The notes beneath the pieces were generated by a model. That model worked only from the letters and a program-made list of their open reading frames with translations, did no database searches and was not told where the DNA came from. The position numbers and the translations under genes were made by a program. A stretch of DNA of 35,885 bases from a virus: IMG/VR virus record IMGVR_UViG_3300035034_001388, positions 1 to 35,885 of that record; one strand, written 5' to 3'. Shown in pieces: positions 1,795 to 33,218 of the stretch. Positions within the stretch are counted from its first letter, which is position 1. Each line of letters begins with the position of its first letter.

Positions 1795-2997
1795 TCAACT
1801 CAGGCGCAGAGGCATCACGACTGCTAGGCGCTGATCCTCACCAGTGGCAACCATCGTCGATAATTCGTCCCTGAATGCCCAGGTCAGGCAACCAGCGGCG
1901 AGTGCTCCTAGTAGGTATGGCGCGTTGAAGGCAATCTCCACGGTCTCGTGCGAAGGCGTCATAATGCCATTGATCGTCACTGAAGAGCGCCCCGTAATCT
2001 CGGAGCCCGCATCAAGGCGCAAGCTCTTGGCATTACCATCAGCGGTAATCTTTACGGCGACGGAACCTTCCTTTCCGCACTTCGGTGCAGACTTGAGGAA
2101 GGCCGATATCTTCTCGGCGTCGGCTTTCCTTAGAAAGCCTATCCAGTTCCCCGGACTTTTAGGAATCACCTGCTTGTAATTCGGAAAGTTCCCTTCTACG
2201 AGAGTGGTAACGATCGTCCACTCGCCATCACCCAAAATGATCTGGGCGGATTTAGCTTCTGCATTTTCGGGATTCGAATCGGACGCCACGTGAGCGAACA
2301 ACTCAACGGAGCAAGGTCGCTCCTGCAGTGCCTTGAGGCTGAAAAGCTTGGCCGTCGCAGCGGGAACAATCACACTGCGCGGTAAAGAGGCAATATCCCC
2401 ACTAGGTATCTTGAGCAGGCGTCGTCCGTCTGTCGCCACAATCGCACCTTCACGGGACAGAAATACACCGTTCAGGATATAGCGGGTCTCATCCGCAGAA
2501 GCGAATTTTACGGCATCACTCAAGTCCTCGGCGAGATTGGAGTGGATTGTGCGGCTACCCAAGGAATCGCCACGGGGGAACGTGTTGTATTCCTCGAGTT
2601 CGCGGCAGATGATTTGACTGCTCCCTCGATCATGGGAGACCGTCAGTATCGGGCGCTCGGCGGGGTATGGACTTACGTCCGGATCCTCGCTAGTAACCGT
2701 GTAAGTCTCGCCCTCAGTGACGAGCGTCACGGTGTCGCCGGGCTTCGCAGATTTAAGAGCTGCCGCGAGTTTCTTGAGCGGCACCAATGCCGCAAAGTCG
2801 CGATCAAAGGTGCCGCGCCAGACGAGCTCGCGGTCAAAGTCATTTGCGTGGATGTTGCCATCCATGAAAACAACGCACTCCATTACGGGCAGTTTGGGGC
2901 TGTTCGGTACGATTTTTCCGAGTACGGCCAAAGCGCGTTGCAGCGTCTTGACGTTCATGTGGATAGTAGAACTCTTTGTCGATAATACGGCATTCAT
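1795..2997 (-). CDS. dnaN: DNA polymerase III beta subunit (sliding clamp)
   Basis: 400 residues, close to the usual ~365-375 of bacterial clamps. Family hallmarks are visible: D-E-T-R-Y-I-L-N-G-V-F-L followed by I-V-A-T-D-G-R-R-L in the middle domain, a late E-G-N-F-P-N-Y motif, and a C-terminal V-M-P-L-R-L, matching the family's conserved M-P-M-R-L end. It should form the ring that tethers a replicative polymerase to DNA. The frame stays open for 27 codons upstream, but the ATG at 2997 is preferred because AAAGGAAACC precedes it and the domain begins after it. A phage-encoded clamp implies replication that is partly independent of the host clamp, or competition for host polymerase. It lies next to radC in the early arm. 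Confidence 0.93.
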   Translation of the reverse strand: MNAVLSTKSSTIHMNVKTLQRALAVLGKIVPNSPKLPVMECVVFMDGNIHANDFDRELVWRGTFDRDFAALVPLKKLAAALKSAKPGDTVTLVTEGETYTVTSEDPDVSPYPAERPILTVSHDRGSSQIICRELEEYNTFPRGDSLGSRTIHSNLAEDLSDAVKFASADETRYILNGVFLSREGAIVATDGRRLLKIPSGDIASLPRSVIVPAATAKLFSLKALQERPCSVELFAHVASDSNPENAEAKSAQIILGDGEWTIVTTLVEGNFPNYKQVIPKSPGNWIGFLRKADAEKISAFLKSAPKCGKEGSVAVKITADGNAKSLRLDAGSEITGRSSVTINGIMTPSHETVEIAFNAPYLLGALAAGCLTWAFRDELSTMVATGEDQRLAVVMPLRLS

Positions 2998-3034
2998 GGT
3001 TTCCTTTGATTTGTGGTTGTTGGTGGAGCCGAGC

Positions 3035-3703
3035 TCAAATGAGCCCCGCCTCGCTAAATGAGTAGTAACCGATTCCAAGCGGGTCTAACTCGCGCTCGCC
3101 CATAATAATGTGATCATCGAGGTCAACGCCGATAATCTTGGAAGCCTCACGGAGTTGTCTCGTTACTTGCATGTCGGCACGGCTCGGCGCAGGGTCGCCG
3201 CTTGGGTGGTTATGCACCGCAATGATCGCGGTAGCGGTATGCAGGATGGCAGCGCGGAATGCTTCGCGGGGATGAACCAAGCAACTGGTCGCAGTGCCAC
3301 TGCTGATCTCGACACGCTTGAGCAGCCGATTTTTACGATCAAGGCAGAGCACCCAGAATTTTTCGACCGTCAGAGGGGCGGTCAATGGGTGCATGTAGCG
3401 GGAGACTGCATCTGGAGTAGTGAAGCATCCACGGTCAAGTGGAGCGCTACGGGCGAACAATGAAAAGCTCGCCATAAGTTTCGACGCGGTGGCTTTACTG
3501 ATACCCGGCACGAAGCAAAGCTCTTCAAGGCTCCACTTCGATATTTTGTTTAGGCTCTCGCCCATGTCGAGCAAGGCAGTCGCGACGGGGAGATTGCCGA
3601 TGATAAGCGCCAGCAATTCGCGGTCGGAGAGTGTTTGTGAGCCGTAGAGCGCCGAACGCTCTTGAACCTCTTGGATAAGATAATTTTTCATAAAAAGTTG
3701 CAC
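3035..3703 (-). CDS. radC: RadC family protein, JAMM/MPN metalloprotease-like fold
   Basis: 222 residues from a GTG at 3703, or 218 from the ATG at 3691; neither has a good Shine-Dalgarno. An N-terminal helix-hairpin-helix-like segment (F-V-P-G-I-S-K, about residues 64-76) precedes the JAB domain. The JAMM signature H-N-H-P-S-G-D-P-A-P-S-R-A-D (His164, His166, Ser174, Asp177) is intact, so metal binding is expected. RadC proteins are common on phages, plasmids and integrative elements. The original repair role is doubtful and the biochemical function is unresolved. Here it lies just upstream of the clamp in the leftward unit, suggesting a DNA-metabolism or anti-defence role. Confidence 0.93.
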   Translation of the reverse strand: MQLFMKNYLIQEVQERSALYGSQTLSDRELLALIIGNLPVATALLDMGESLNKISKWSLEELCFVPGISKATASKLMASFSLFARSAPLDRGCFTTPDAVSRYMHPLTAPLTVEKFWVLCLDRKNRLLKRVEISSGTATSCLVHPREAFRAAILHTATAIIAVHNHPSGDPAPSRADMQVTRQLREASKIIGVDLDDHIIMGERELDPLGIGYYSFSEAGLI

Positions 3704-28378: not shown

Positions 28379-29935
28379 ATGAGTAAATTAGGGCAACTAC
28401 TCACCGAACTGACCGAAGTGGCGGTCGGGAACGGAAGATGGAAGAAGACGCAAGAGCGCCTAAATTCTATGCAAGAGGCGATCAAGGCTTTGGCGCGTGG
28501 AGACAACATAGTGTCGGGGAAGTATATCACAAAAAACCTACTCAACCCGCACACGATTTCGCTCTCCGGAACTCCCGGCGGCGGCGGCGGTGGATCGTCC
28601 GATTACCCTCTTAAAATAAAAACGGCGATCGACCCAGATAATGGCGATGTGCTAGTCGATGTCGTGCCGTCATTCCTCTACGATTACACCGTCGGTTCAA
28701 CTGCGCCTGCGAAATTTGACATCACCCCGGCCGAGCCCATTGCCCTGTCTGCTGCCGGGAACTACACAGCATTTGTCCGCGTCTCGATAGATCAAGCCGT
28801 AGGCAAAAAAGTGACTGCTATAGAGTGGGCAGTTGAGGAGGGAGAAATCGCCTCGGAGGAGGGAGAAATCGCCCCGGAGGACGGAGAAGTATTGCTTGAG
28901 GTCGGCACGGTCGAGGTGATCAAGACGGGCAGCGTCCTATCGGTGGGAGTCGTGGAGAATCTCACGGCAGGCTTCCTGAGCTGGCCTCCGCGCCCACCAT
29001 GGCTCGGATTCGATGAGGCGGAAAACGATGTTACATTCGGGCAGGATTATAATTCCGACGAGGCCCCCACAACCGCTGACCCCACGGTAATTACCGACCT
29101 CACCATCTGGACAGAGGAAGACCTCAATATCAACGGATATGGCGGCGAGTTCCAGCGCGGCGGTGCCACGGAGGGGCAACCCGCCTTTCAGATTGGCACT
29201 AAGCTCGGCACGGAAGAGACGGCGGGGGCGTATTGGTCAACGGCGGGCGGCTATATTGGTGTCGGCTCACTCGCGGGCGGAGCAGAGGACGACTCAGGTT
29301 ACTTACTAGCCGCGAATACAGCCCTGAGCGAGTATGTGGACATTCGGCCAGCGACCGTTAAAGGCGTCGATACAGCAGCGGGGGAGTTCTTGCTTGATGC
29401 GGGAGAAGTTCCAAGCGGTGAGTCGATTCAGGTTAAGCTCATCACTATGCCCAATGGTGACGAGATCCGCACCTTTGCTACTGATGATATTGACCTTTCT
29501 GCCCTTTCGGGTGCCGGAGTCCCGTGGGCGGATTACGATGCAGGAAACCTTAAGATCGGGGGAGCCTCCACCGATGGAGTAGCAGACCTTACGATAGGTT
29601 TTACGGGTCAACTTAGTCTTGTAGGTGGGGCCGATTTTGCCTTCGTAGTGGATCCCATTCGCGCTGAGCTATCCTACCTACGCATGGGCTCAGCCCATGT
29701 GAATGTTCAGGATCTAGCGTCTTTCTTTGCAGGTGACATAACCTCGGAGGTGGGCACGGCTATCTCGCCAAACTCCATAATAATAGACGATCAGGACGCC
29801 AAATCAATTACCGCCGCTCTAGTCGACTTACCCGCGTCGGGAGTGGCTAAGTTTCGCTCAACTATGGTCTGTGATGGCGACGACCTGAAGGAGAGCTACA
29901 TCATGATGACCGAACCCAAAACACCGTCCCCCTAA
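28379..29935 (+). CDS. Tail tip/fibre protein with poly-Gly linker and short tandem repeats
   Basis: 518 residues from the ATG at 28379 (4 nt after the preceding stop). An N-terminal helical segment (K-L-G-Q-L-L-T-E-L-T-E-V) leads to a G-G-G-G-G-G linker near residue 64, then beta-rich regions. Between about 157 and 175 an E-E-G-E-I-A-S/P motif is repeated nearly three times, encoded by ~30-nt tandem repeats. The long C-terminal part is acidic and beta-rich, as in tail tips and fibres. It ends in a TAATG overlap with the next gene. Confidence 0.62.
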   Translation: MSKLGQLLTELTEVAVGNGRWKKTQERLNSMQEAIKALARGDNIVSGKYITKNLLNPHTISLSGTPGGGGGGSSDYPLKIKTAIDPDNGDVLVDVVPSFLYDYTVGSTAPAKFDITPAEPIALSAAGNYTAFVRVSIDQAVGKKVTAIEWAVEEGEIASEEGEIAPEDGEVLLEVGTVEVIKTGSVLSVGVVENLTAGFLSWPPRPPWLGFDEAENDVTFGQDYNSDEAPTTADPTVITDLTIWTEEDLNINGYGGEFQRGGATEGQPAFQIGTKLGTEETAGAYWSTAGGYIGVGSLAGGAEDDSGYLLAANTALSEYVDIRPATVKGVDTAAGEFLLDAGEVPSGESIQVKLITMPNGDEIRTFATDDIDLSALSGAGVPWADYDAGNLKIGGASTDGVADLTIGFTGQLSLVGGADFAFVVDPIRAELSYLRMGSAHVNVQDLASFFAGDITSEVGTAISPNSIIIDDQDAKSITAALVDLPASGVAKFRSTMVCDGDDLKESYIMMTEPKTPSP

Positions 29936-30675
29936 TGGCAATCTGGCTACCCAACAATAAAGACGATTCCGACGCGCCGACTTGCTACGTGCCTGGCCTA
30001 CCTTATGTCTCGCAGGCCGATGGTGTGCAAGACAACCCCAACGGGTTTTTCCAAAAAGAATCTATCGGCAACGCGGGTAACGCCGTGCAGAAGTATATGC
30101 ATTACTGCACGCGAATGTTGAGGTGGAATGACATCAACCTTGATCCCTTCACGGTGAGCGGCACGCCAACGATCAATAAGACTAAGCGGTTCGGCGATCT
30201 TGGCAGCTACCATGTAAGCGACGCCTACGGCATTCGGACGAGCGGTGGATCAGTCGATCTAGATAGCGCGTTTACTCGATACAGATTCCCATCCGAAGAA
30301 GTCCCTTACCACCTATATGATTATAGAGGCGTAAGCGTGGGCACGGGCTTCCCTTTTACGGGGAAGACCTGCGGGTGGTTGCCTGCCGCAGAGGATTCAG
30401 GGTTCTTCTGGGTGCCGACTACGACCGACCTCAGCAATATTGAAACGGGGCTAGAGGCATTTCTCGTTAGCAAAAGCACTAGCCTTTCCGCGCTCGCCGC
30501 CCTCCCGCAAGTGTGGAACCTCTGCATCATCGCATGGATGTGGGCAGGGTATGATGGTGGAGCAACTGAGTTCCACGACGGAGAGGACAGGCCATCGCAA
30601 GGACTTTCAGGACGGCTGACAGAATTACGAGCTGTCAAGGACTGCGACGTTTACTATCTACCCTATCTCTACTAA
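29935..30675 (+). CDS. Intron-split tail-region protein, 5' exon (unspliced ORF)
   Basis: The ATG at 29935 overlaps the stop of the preceding gene (TAATG). The continuous frame is 246 codons and ends at TAA 30673-30675. That stop lies at the predicted 5' splice junction: exon 1 would end with T30673, and splicing to 30923 gives codon T-CG and 31 more residues (total about 278). The product is Trp/Tyr/Gly-rich (W-M-W-A-G-Y-D-G-G), with no recognised domain. It is encoded between two tail fibre-like genes, so a tail tip or fibre role is inferred. Without splicing a shorter protein lacking the last 32 residues would be made. Confidence 0.72.
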   Translation: MAIWLPNNKDDSDAPTCYVPGLPYVSQADGVQDNPNGFFQKESIGNAGNAVQKYMHYCTRMLRWNDINLDPFTVSGTPTINKTKRFGDLGSYHVSDAYGIRTSGGSVDLDSAFTRYRFPSEEVPYHLYDYRGVSVGTGFPFTGKTCGWLPAAEDSGFFWVPTTTDLSNIETGLEAFLVSKSTSLSALAALPQVWNLCIIAWMWAGYDGGATEFHDGEDRPSQGLSGRLTELRAVKDCDVYYLPYLY

Positions 30676-30922
30676 TGATTTTTCAACCACATCGACATCG
30701 ACATCGGGCATTATGGGGTGAACTCAGGGAAACTCCCACGCGGACAATCCTGAGCCAAGCTTTCGCAGGAATGCGATTGAAGGTGCAACGACTAGGTAGC
30801 GAGGCCAGAACGGCCAGTAATCTACCCACGAGCGCCCCACGGCCTAGCCGCCGAAGAGATAGTCTGAACTGCATGGCAACATGCAGAAGCGCGGGATAAA
30901 CAGCCCACGCGATAACACAATG
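30674..30922 (+). ncRNA. Group I self-splicing intron (subgroup IA-like, td-like), no ORF
   Basis: The complete catalytic core can be drawn. P3 is TGGGGTG (30714-30720) with CGCCCCA (30833-30839). AA joins it to P4, CTCAGG (30723-30728) with CCTGAG (30749-30754), and the 3' strand continues into the typical AATCCTGAGCCAAG. P6 hairpin TCGCA-GGAA-TGCGA spans 30763-30776. P7 is GACTA (30790-30794) with TAGTC (30860-30864). P7.1/P7.2-like GGTAG/CTACC spans 30795-30826 and P8 CGGC-cta-GCCG spans 30840-30850. P9.1 is CTGCATG-GCAA-CATGCAG (30869-30886). P9.2 joins 30889-30895 to 30904-30910. The end ACACAATG gives omega-G at 30922. The P7'/P9.1 part closely resembles the T4 td intron as I remember it. 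The 5' end is less certain because I could not place a clean P1 guide. Confidence 0.9.
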
Positions 30923-31020
30923 CGCCGAGAGGCCAGCTCAAAGAGGGTGTCGATGTGGTTGACCCCTTTCCTGCCGTTGACACTCGCCCCCATCTATGGC
31001 GGATTACAACTGGTGGCTAG
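30923..31020 (+). CDS. 3' exon of the intron-split tail-region gene
   Basis: After the intron, the frame starting with two bases CG plus CCG AGA GGC CAG is open for 31 codons to TAG at 31018-31020. It encodes P-R-G-Q-L-K-E-G-V-D-V-V-D-P-F-P-A-V, ending in I-T-T-G-G. It has no start codon of its own, looks protein-like in composition, and is reached in phase only if the 5' exon ends after a first codon base, as T30673 does. It overlaps the start of the next gene by 25 nt. Alternative frames are stopped or non-protein-like. Confidence 0.7.
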
Positions 31021-33218
31021 ACCAAACTTCACGTTCGATACATCAACGTCTCGACACTACTTTGATGCTATCCGGTTTCCGGTTTTTCCAGGGCGACAAC
31101 CCCTCGATCAACCTCCAGCTCAAGAAGACTTCCGAAGAGGCCAATGCGGGGTTTGATCCCATTTCCTTTCCATCAGGCGGAAGTATGCGGGTCGGCATCG
31201 TTAATCCCGATCAAGCTGTCACGGGGGGAACCTTCACCCTTGGATTTGGGGGCAACGAAACTGCCGCCCTTCCCTATAGCGTCACTGCGGCGGCTCTCGA
31301 GACTGCGATCAATGGACTCGCATCAATCGCTACCGCCGGAGACGTTACAGTTACGGGCGAGGCGGGCGGGCCATGGCGAATCAAATTTGACGACCCCGGC
31401 ACCCGAAGTTTGCTCGGGGTGAATGCCGAACTGATTTTACCTTCAGGTGAAGCTCAAATTCACGAGGAGAATGTCGGTGACGCTGACTCATCCAGCGTGC
31501 AATATCTTCGCATTAAACAGGCTGCGCTTGCCGAGCAAGCCACCTGGGCAGACATTCCGGCTGCGGCAGTCGTCGTCGCGACTGTTCAGGCAGGATCCGG
31601 CTCCGTGAATGAGGTGCAAAAAGTTTCCCTGTCCCCTTTTCCGCGCAGTGGTAACTTTACTTTGAGCTTCGATGGCCAGACTACCGCGAGTATCAGCTAC
31701 GACGCCACCGCCGCAACCGTCCAGGCTGCCCTTATAGCACTCTCCAACATTGCGGACGCTGCGGTGATCGTCACCAAGGTCGCATCCGGCTCCTGGCTTA
31801 TTGAGTTTATTGGCGATCTAGCCCTTGCCAATCAACCTGAAATGACGGGTAGCGCGACCGGCCTTCTCTCTTACGAGGGTAAGACCGGCCGCCTTTCGAT
31901 TCGTCGCGCAGCAGTTCAAAACTACCTAGACGCCAATGCTGTCGAAAACGGAATAGCCTTCGCTTACCTTGAGATCGAGATCAAAGACGCTGACGGGAAC
32001 GCGACATCGTACCGGTACGATTGCGAGATCGTGAACGACGGGCTTGGAGAGAATATCTCGAGCGACACCTCGGGGTCACCATTGGTCGCGCAGTCCGTAG
32101 GCGATCAGCGGTACGCCCGCCCACTTTCTGCCATCACTGGGCTCACGGGCGGCGCAGGCACCGACCTCGACTCCATAGTGGCCGCAACCCTCGCAGTCGG
32201 CTCCGTGGTCGTTCTTCCTCGTATCGTAATAGGGGCATCCGTAGTGTCGCGCTGGTGGGTCTTGGAAACCTCAGCCAGCCGGCCGGCTGAATCTCCTCAA
32301 GTTGTGCATCCCGACGACGACTCAAACAAGTATTGGCAGGCACTTGTTTCGGGCGTCACCGCCACCAACGCCGAAATCATCGCAGGCACCGAGGCGGCTA
32401 TCCGCAGCATGTCGCCTGCGATGATTAAGCTCGGAGTGGATGCGCATAGCGGTCTCCAAGAGACGCTCTTTTCCGCAACGACTACGGGGGCTGTCACCAG
32501 TAAGCTCGTAATTGGAGAACTTGTAGCGGGTGACACGCCCTCGAATGTTGAACATGCCTCAATCGGTAGATCAGTGACATCGCTCGGAACAGATGCGTTT
32601 AAATCTAGTCTAAGCCTTGAGTCTGTCACTTTAAACCAGGGACTACTAACAATCGGCAGCTCTGCGTTCCGTGATTGCAGCGCTCTAACGAGTGTCACGA
32701 TTCCCGACTCTGTCACGTCAATCGGCAGCTATGCGTTCAGTTATTGCAGCGGTCTAACGAGTGTCACGATTGGCGACTCTGTCACGTCAATCGGCAGCTC
32801 TGCGTTCCGTGATTGCAGCGCTCTAACGAGTGTCACGATTCCCGACTCTGTCACGACAATCGGCAGCTCTGCGTTCCTTTTTTGCAGCGGTCTAACGAGT
32901 GTCACGATTCCCGACTCTGTCACGACAATCGGCAGCTATGCGTTCCTTTTTTGCAGCGGTCTAACGAGTGTCACGATTGGCGACTCTGTCACGTCAATCG
33001 GCAGCTCTGCGTTCCGTGATTGCAGCGCTCTAACGTCCATTGATTGCTATATCAACAAAACAGTTATTGATTCAGCGTCCAACATGTTGTCAGGGACGAA
33101 TGCGTCACTGGTGATCACGATTCCAGTGGACGCGGCACAACCCGTTAAGGATTCATGGACAGCAGGAACGGGGCTAACAATCGGCGGTAACACCAGCGTT
33201 GATGTCGTCAAACTATAA
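30996..33218 (+). CDS. Receptor-binding-type tail fibre with BspA-like leucine-rich repeats
   Basis: 740 residues. The N-terminus (M-A-D-Y-N-W-W-L-D) is probably tail-attached. Two copies of a beta repeat (G-T-F-T-L-G-F-G-G near 77 and G-N-F-T-L-S-F-D-G-Q-T near 217, each followed by A-A-T-V-Q-A-A-L-type helix and a W-x-I-x-F strand) resemble domains in phage baseplate/fibre proteins. Residues about 551-680 form BspA/LRR_5-type repeats of 23 residues (S-S-A-F-R-D-C-S-A-L-T-S-V-T-I-P-D-S-V-T). A final beta segment follows. BspA-type LRRs bind surface proteins and glycans, so this is the likely host-recognition fibre. Its start overlaps the upstream split gene by 25 nt. Confidence 0.8.
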   Translation: MADYNWWLDQTSRSIHQRLDTTLMLSGFRFFQGDNPSINLQLKKTSEEANAGFDPISFPSGGSMRVGIVNPDQAVTGGTFTLGFGGNETAALPYSVTAAALETAINGLASIATAGDVTVTGEAGGPWRIKFDDPGTRSLLGVNAELILPSGEAQIHEENVGDADSSSVQYLRIKQAALAEQATWADIPAAAVVVATVQAGSGSVNEVQKVSLSPFPRSGNFTLSFDGQTTASISYDATAATVQAALIALSNIADAAVIVTKVASGSWLIEFIGDLALANQPEMTGSATGLLSYEGKTGRLSIRRAAVQNYLDANAVENGIAFAYLEIEIKDADGNATSYRYDCEIVNDGLGENISSDTSGSPLVAQSVGDQRYARPLSAITGLTGGAGTDLDSIVAATLAVGSVVVLPRIVIGASVVSRWWVLETSASRPAESPQVVHPDDDSNKYWQALVSGVTATNAEIIAGTEAAIRSMSPAMIKLGVDAHSGLQETLFSATTTGAVTSKLVIGELVAGDTPSNVEHASIGRSVTSLGTDAFKSSLSLESVTLNQGLLTIGSSAFRDCSALTSVTIPDSVTSIGSYAFSYCSGLTSVTIGDSVTSIGSSAFRDCSALTSVTIPDSVTTIGSSAFLFCSGLTSVTIPDSVTTIGSYAFLFCSGLTSVTIGDSVTSIGSSAFRDCSALTSIDCYINKTVIDSASNMLSGTNASLVITIPVDAAQPVKDSWTAGTGLTIGGNTSVDVVKL
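32650..33033 (+). repeat. Six near-identical 69-bp LRR-coding tandem repeats
   Basis: Units begin at 32650, 32719, 32788, 32857, 32926 and 32995, each starting with (A/T)CAATCGGCAGCT; the last is truncated. They differ only at a few codons (R-D/S-Y/L-F before C-S; S-A/S-G; I-P-D/I-G-D; V-T-S/V-T-T; S-S/S-Y before A-F), and the variants recur in new combinations between units, as expected from recombination among repeats. Confidence 0.95.

Follow-up and report, generated by a model that had tools for sequence, protein, structure and literature searches.

A group I intron with a putative P10 helix of 16–17 bp was found in the window, by which we mean the whole 35,885-nucleotide stretch analyzed here (IMG/VR record IMGVR_UViG_3300035034_001388). 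Positions 30714–30922 of the plus strand form the core of a group I intron of subgroup IA. Judging from the sequence, we give a probability of about 0.68 to the reading that this core belongs to an ORF-less, self-splicing intron whose 3′ end lies at 30945 or 30946, whose exon 2 is held by the long P10, and which sits near the 3′ end of a late-region gene (29935–31020) of an uncultivated tailed phage. The long covarying P10 is the only unusual feature of the intron.

The initial annotation had described a compact, ORF-less group I intron at this locus, and that identification is borne out. A covariance-model scan with Rfam Intron_gpI (RF00028), the search it had proposed, returned a sole match in the window (59.4 bits, E 8.5e-13, 30624–30886, plus strand) against a gathering score of 50 bits. 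All core helices can be paired directly from the letters of the window (Table 1), and both GNRA loops (GGAA at 30768–30771, GCAA at 30876–30879) and the segment AATCCTGAGCCAAGC (30746–30760) are present. The conserved P3, P4, P6, P7, and P8 of group I introns are thus represented, with P7 as the G-binding helix, while P7.1 and P7.2, located between the 5′ strand of P7 and the 3′ strand of P3, are those of subgroup IA. The same core recurs in other phages: blastn retrieved it from 218 phage records, the terminase intron of Vibrio phage qdvp001 matching best (82.8% over 96 nt), and at least 120 IMG/VR stretches contain it by an exact pattern scan. A second IMG/VR contig (63.9 kb), from virtually the same virus, displays 100% identity across the intron region. 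The ORF list and codon bias gave no homing endonuclease ORF inside the intron, where none of endonuclease size would fit; the longest ORF within it encodes 74 aa with non-coding codon usage, and codon bias is negative in all forward frames of 30720–30922.

Table 1. Positions of the exons, intron, and intron helices in the window; fractions are pairs formed in direct pairing
Feature	Position	Strand	Details and basis
Exon 1	29935–30664	+	End uncertain: U30664 (homology) or U30651 (guide pairing); ORF, homologues
Intron, most likely extent by homology	30665–30946	+	282 nt; homologous P1 of L131/L132, P10 register, reading frame
Intron, alternative extent	30652–30945	+	294 nt; guide pairing
P10 guide strand	30683–30699, partner 30946–30962	+	17/17 pairs; covariation
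P1 guide region	30700–30711	+	Guide pairing
P3	30714–30720/30833–30839	+	7/7 pairs; Rfam alignment
P4	30723–30728/30749–30754	+	6/6 pairs; Rfam
P5	30734–30736/30742–30744	+	3/3 pairs; Rfam
P6 and P6a	30755–30783	+	P6a 5/5 pairs; GGAA tetraloop 30768–30771; Rfam
P7	30790–30794/30860–30864	+	5/5 pairs; encloses P7.1, P7.2, P8
P7.1	30795–30799/30822–30826	+	5/5 pairs
P7.2	30803–30806/30812–30815	+	4/4 pairs
P8	30840–30843/30847–30850	+	4/4 pairs
P9 hairpin	30869–30886	+	7/7 pairs; GCAA tetraloop 30876–30879; Rfam
P9.2-type hairpin	30889–30895/30904–30910	+	6/7 pairs
Motif GATAACACAATG, intron end in relatives	within 30889–30922	+	3′ ends of relatives
Extra segment before exon 2	30923–30946	+	105 nt in L132, 124 nt in L131
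Exon 2	30947–31020	+	VDVVDPFPAVDTRPHLWRITTGG*; TAG 31018–31020; codon usage, P10

Evidence for the long P10 came from homologues of the host gene. Among viral contigs, only two loci, L131 (IMGVR_UViG_3300038520_002359) and L132, encode homologues of the host protein (41–43% protein identity to the window protein), and in both the intron occupies the site that it has in the window gene. L131 was added by a profile scan; L082, on the same contig as L132, was among the loci retrieved with the intron pattern; its alignment extends outside the core, and it encodes a host-protein homologue. Scans and tblastn of genome contigs and phage records yielded no intron-less homologue, and in a synteny test no late gene of the window other than the host gene had a blast match in L131 or L132.

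A perfect 17-bp inverted repeat in the window joins 30683–30699 to 30946–30962, so that P10, in group I introns the pairing of the guide with the first nucleotides of exon 2, would here comprise 16–17 bp. The P10 of Tetrahymena, at 5 bp (PMC10020454), is roughly a third as long. At shift 0, the helix between guide and exon 2 pairs at 16/16 positions in the window and at 15/16 in each of L131 and L132, as opposed to at most 10/16 at other shifts. Nine of the 16 pairs have changed on both sides, a level attained in none of 500 shuffles, and slid controls left no more than 44% of cells paired; with just three homologues, of which two are closely similar, this covariation rests largely on one comparison. 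Among 66 distinct relatives, long-range complementarity reached z −5.3 in the window's virus and z −5.0 in L082, with the next at −3.3. Transposon terminal inverted repeats were rejected as the source of the two arms, since these differ in sequence between homologues while their complementarity, in a register common to all three, is kept. A limited literature search retrieved no paper on a P10 of 16–17 bp in phage introns.

Given that P10 lies at the start of exon 2 in sister introns and that its register is conserved here, exon 2 most likely starts at 30946 or 30947. Sixteen P10 pairs can form from +1 at 30947, the first 16 nt of exon 2 being the 3′ strand of P10. The G expected at the end of a group I intron is found at 30922, 30945, and 30946. 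The first of these had been taken as omega-G in the initial annotation: a G is indeed present there and closes the usual 3′ end motif of relatives, AAYAYAAUG, which ends at 30922 and not at 30946 and so counts against the downstream site, but the covarying P10 places exon 2 at 30946/30947. We regard as unlikely an intron of the same identity that is cleaved after G30922, with exon 2 beginning CGCC and the long helix serving as an accessory intron–exon pairing in place of P10. The sequence GATAACACAATG at this site agrees with the 3′ ends of relatives, L132 has it unchanged together with the CGCC that comes next, and the frame would be kept if exon 1 ended at 30664, 30670, or 30673. Cleavage at G30922 would nevertheless allow no more than 4 bp of P10 at 30923, would leave the covarying helix unexplained, and would have exon 2 of L131 meet a stop after 28 codons, its length being out of frame with that of L132. 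Moreover, the stretch from the usual 3′ motif to the P10 partner is unlikely to be exon, since its lengths in L131 and L132 are 19 nt apart and an in-frame stop interrupts it in L131.

With exon 2 starting at 30946/30947, the junctions 30664^30947 and 30651^30946 both keep the frame open to the stop at 31018–31020, and the two candidate products would be the same except at the junction, where YYLPC or G precedes VDVVD. Read from 30949 in the frame of exon 1, exon 2 has codon usage typical of this virus, with a score that is reached by 57% of true-frame windows and by 1–2% of wrong-frame ones. Homologous junctions give similar protein ends, VGFINCTNTTNMI in L131 and VGFMNCTSTTDMI in L132.

At the 5′ side, exon 1 likely ends at U30651, as suggested by guide pairing, or at U30664, as suggested by homology. 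The former would pair CGACGUU (30645–30651) with GACAUCG (30700–30706) at 6/7 positions, with U30651 opposite G30700; the latter would pair 30659–30664 with GGGCAU (30706–30711) at 3/6 positions, with U30664 opposite G30706. U30664 is the position homologous to the exon end of L132, where UUGCCU pairs with the guide GGGCAA, forming a U–G pair at the splice site and two more pairs beyond; a C-to-U change in L131 leaves this pairing intact, and in the window it is reduced to CCU/GGG. Whichever reading is taken, the P1 of the window is weak, at −2.5 kcal/mol for 30651 and −1.7 kcal/mol for 30664, compared with −4.2 to −8.6 kcal/mol in relatives. Counting against the assignment, the guides of L131 and L132 require a 7-nt gap between P1 and P10 that is missing from sister introns. 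A start at 30674, as initially annotated, is unlikely: an exon ending in UACU at 30673 finds no guide sequence with which it pairs well. A P1 formed by UAAUGAU(U) and GGGCAUUA at 30672–30680 was also rejected; there would be no linker between it and P3, and the frames in which it joins exon 2 at 30923 have a non-coding codon bias. The length of about 249 nt (30674–30922) originally proposed thus probably errs at both ends, and 282–294 nt is the likely value.

The weakness of P1, together with an unspliced ORF that stops soon after exon 1, would suit a decaying, splicing-inactive intron that has lost P1 and leaves the 246-aa unspliced ORF (29935–30675, stop at 30673–30675) as the real product, but the core pairs completely, P10 has been kept by compensatory change, and exon 2 is still coding-like, making decay improbable. 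Least probable, and very much so, is an intron wholly downstream of the host stop (exon 1 ending near 30679–30682) that is spliced within an untranslated region and leaves the protein unchanged: the residues before the unspliced stop are alike in the three homologues (YYLPYLY*, WFFAFIY*) and L131 and L132 can fold CAGUU/AACUG and then GCCYAAAAGGGC, like P1 and P2 of relatives, but these two have no U–G pair at that site, the pairing in the window is weak (−0.4 to −1.0 kcal/mol), and the coding-like frame of exon 2 would be left without a gene.

For an active intron ending at 30945 or 30946, we infer the following course of splicing. GTP would attack after the exon 1 U (U30651 or U30664) held in P1, and exon 1 would then attack after the last intron G (30945 or 30946), with exon 2 held in P10 by the guide. 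Ligation would remove the premature stop at 30673 and add an in-frame tail to the host protein.

The initial annotation had considered the tail-gene site and near-minimal size unusual; precedents exist in mycobacteriophage BAKA (265 bp), Twort orf142, and S-CBWM1 psbA intron 2 (227 nt), and near-minimal, ORF-less group I introns were already known from phage tail genes. In BAKA/Optimus, RT-PCR proved the splicing of a 265-bp group I intron that interrupts a minor tail gene (PMC3706429). It resembles the intron of the window in lacking an ORF, in its size of about 265 bp, and in its group I-type boundaries, with a U before it and a G at its end; it lies in a structural tail gene. Splicing was demonstrated there, whereas the splice sites of the window are predicted and its host protein has no family match. 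Twort orf142 encodes a tail tube protein (PMC11878797). Intron 2 of S-CBWM1 psbA (MG450654), annotated at 227 nt, is likewise ORF-less and has a matching core sequence (76.9% over 85 nt), but it differs in its host gene, its P1 and P2 hairpins, and an exon 2 that follows closely after P9. The terminase introns of Vibrio phages qdvp001 and VnaP have the same core as the window in a different host gene, with a short P10.

Introns in AAA-ATPase genes from IMG/VR (L013 type and L070) provide the closest P9.2 and 3′ end motif and also feature a P10 of 11–16 bp, which begins no more than 3 nt from where exon 2 starts; the L013 type has 11–12 contiguous pairs and L070 has 16. Their exons join in frame (TRAD|HRFMQ). 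Unlike in the window, exon 2 directly follows AAUG, the guide strand of a strong P1 (−8.3 kcal/mol) abuts that of the long P10, and in the L013 type an endonuclease-like ORF precedes the guide. The P10 of L070 is a perfect 16-bp helix from exon 2 position +1 and differs in sequence from that of the L013 type.

The host gene, initially described as a distal tail gene, adjoins a downstream tail-spike-like leucine-rich repeat (LRR) gene, whose 740-aa product contains BspA leucine-rich repeats and has weak matches to tail families, but the host protein itself matches no Pfam or PHROGs family; the tail label is consequently a guess from position. An AlphaFold model of the host protein built from three sequences was unusable (pLDDT 30). 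Within the LRR gene, near-identical repeats of ∼69 nt (32649–33035, plus strand) encode the BspA-type repeats, and viruses seem likely to differ in how many of them they have. A sulfotransferase-family protein (PF13469; 33221–34018, plus strand) is encoded among the late genes, adjoining the LRR gene. Elsewhere, the phage encodes DNA polymerase III beta-clamp-like (PF02767) and RadC-like (PF04002) proteins (1795–3703, minus strand).

The homologous introns contain two further elements. An extra domain follows the usual 3′ motif and precedes the P10 partner (L132:4029–4133, 105 nt; L131:4075–4198, 124 nt); it is much more stable than shuffled sequence in L132 (z −3.7) and not in L131 (z −0.8), and neither copy has a significant match to any Rfam family. 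In the P5 loop of L131, a 66-nt element (L131:3827–3892) scores as tmRNA (RF00023, 49.8 bits; cut-off 47), comprising just the tRNA-like domain, with a G3–U70 pair, and lacking a tag-coding part. Phage DS6A and plastids provide known examples of CDS-less tmRNAs of about 65 nt (PMC11915505), and nesting of such an element in a group I intron looks unusual. ARAGORN made no call on it, and a loose pattern matched no second copy in IMG/VR.

The analysis revises the boundaries of the intron and its coding consequence: automatic annotation would miss the intron and render the host protein too short. It also draws attention to phage introns with a P10 of 11–16 bp, in which the release of long exon–guide duplexes becomes testable. 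Should exon 1 end at 30651, 23 of 24 nt of the guide would pair with the ligated exons, including two G–U pairs. Tentatively, these introns may form a phage clade in which the guide is approximately the antisense of the ligated exons, P10 replaces a weakened P1, and a 3′ domain has been added before the last G. If this antisense-guide reading is true, product release would need translation or a helicase.
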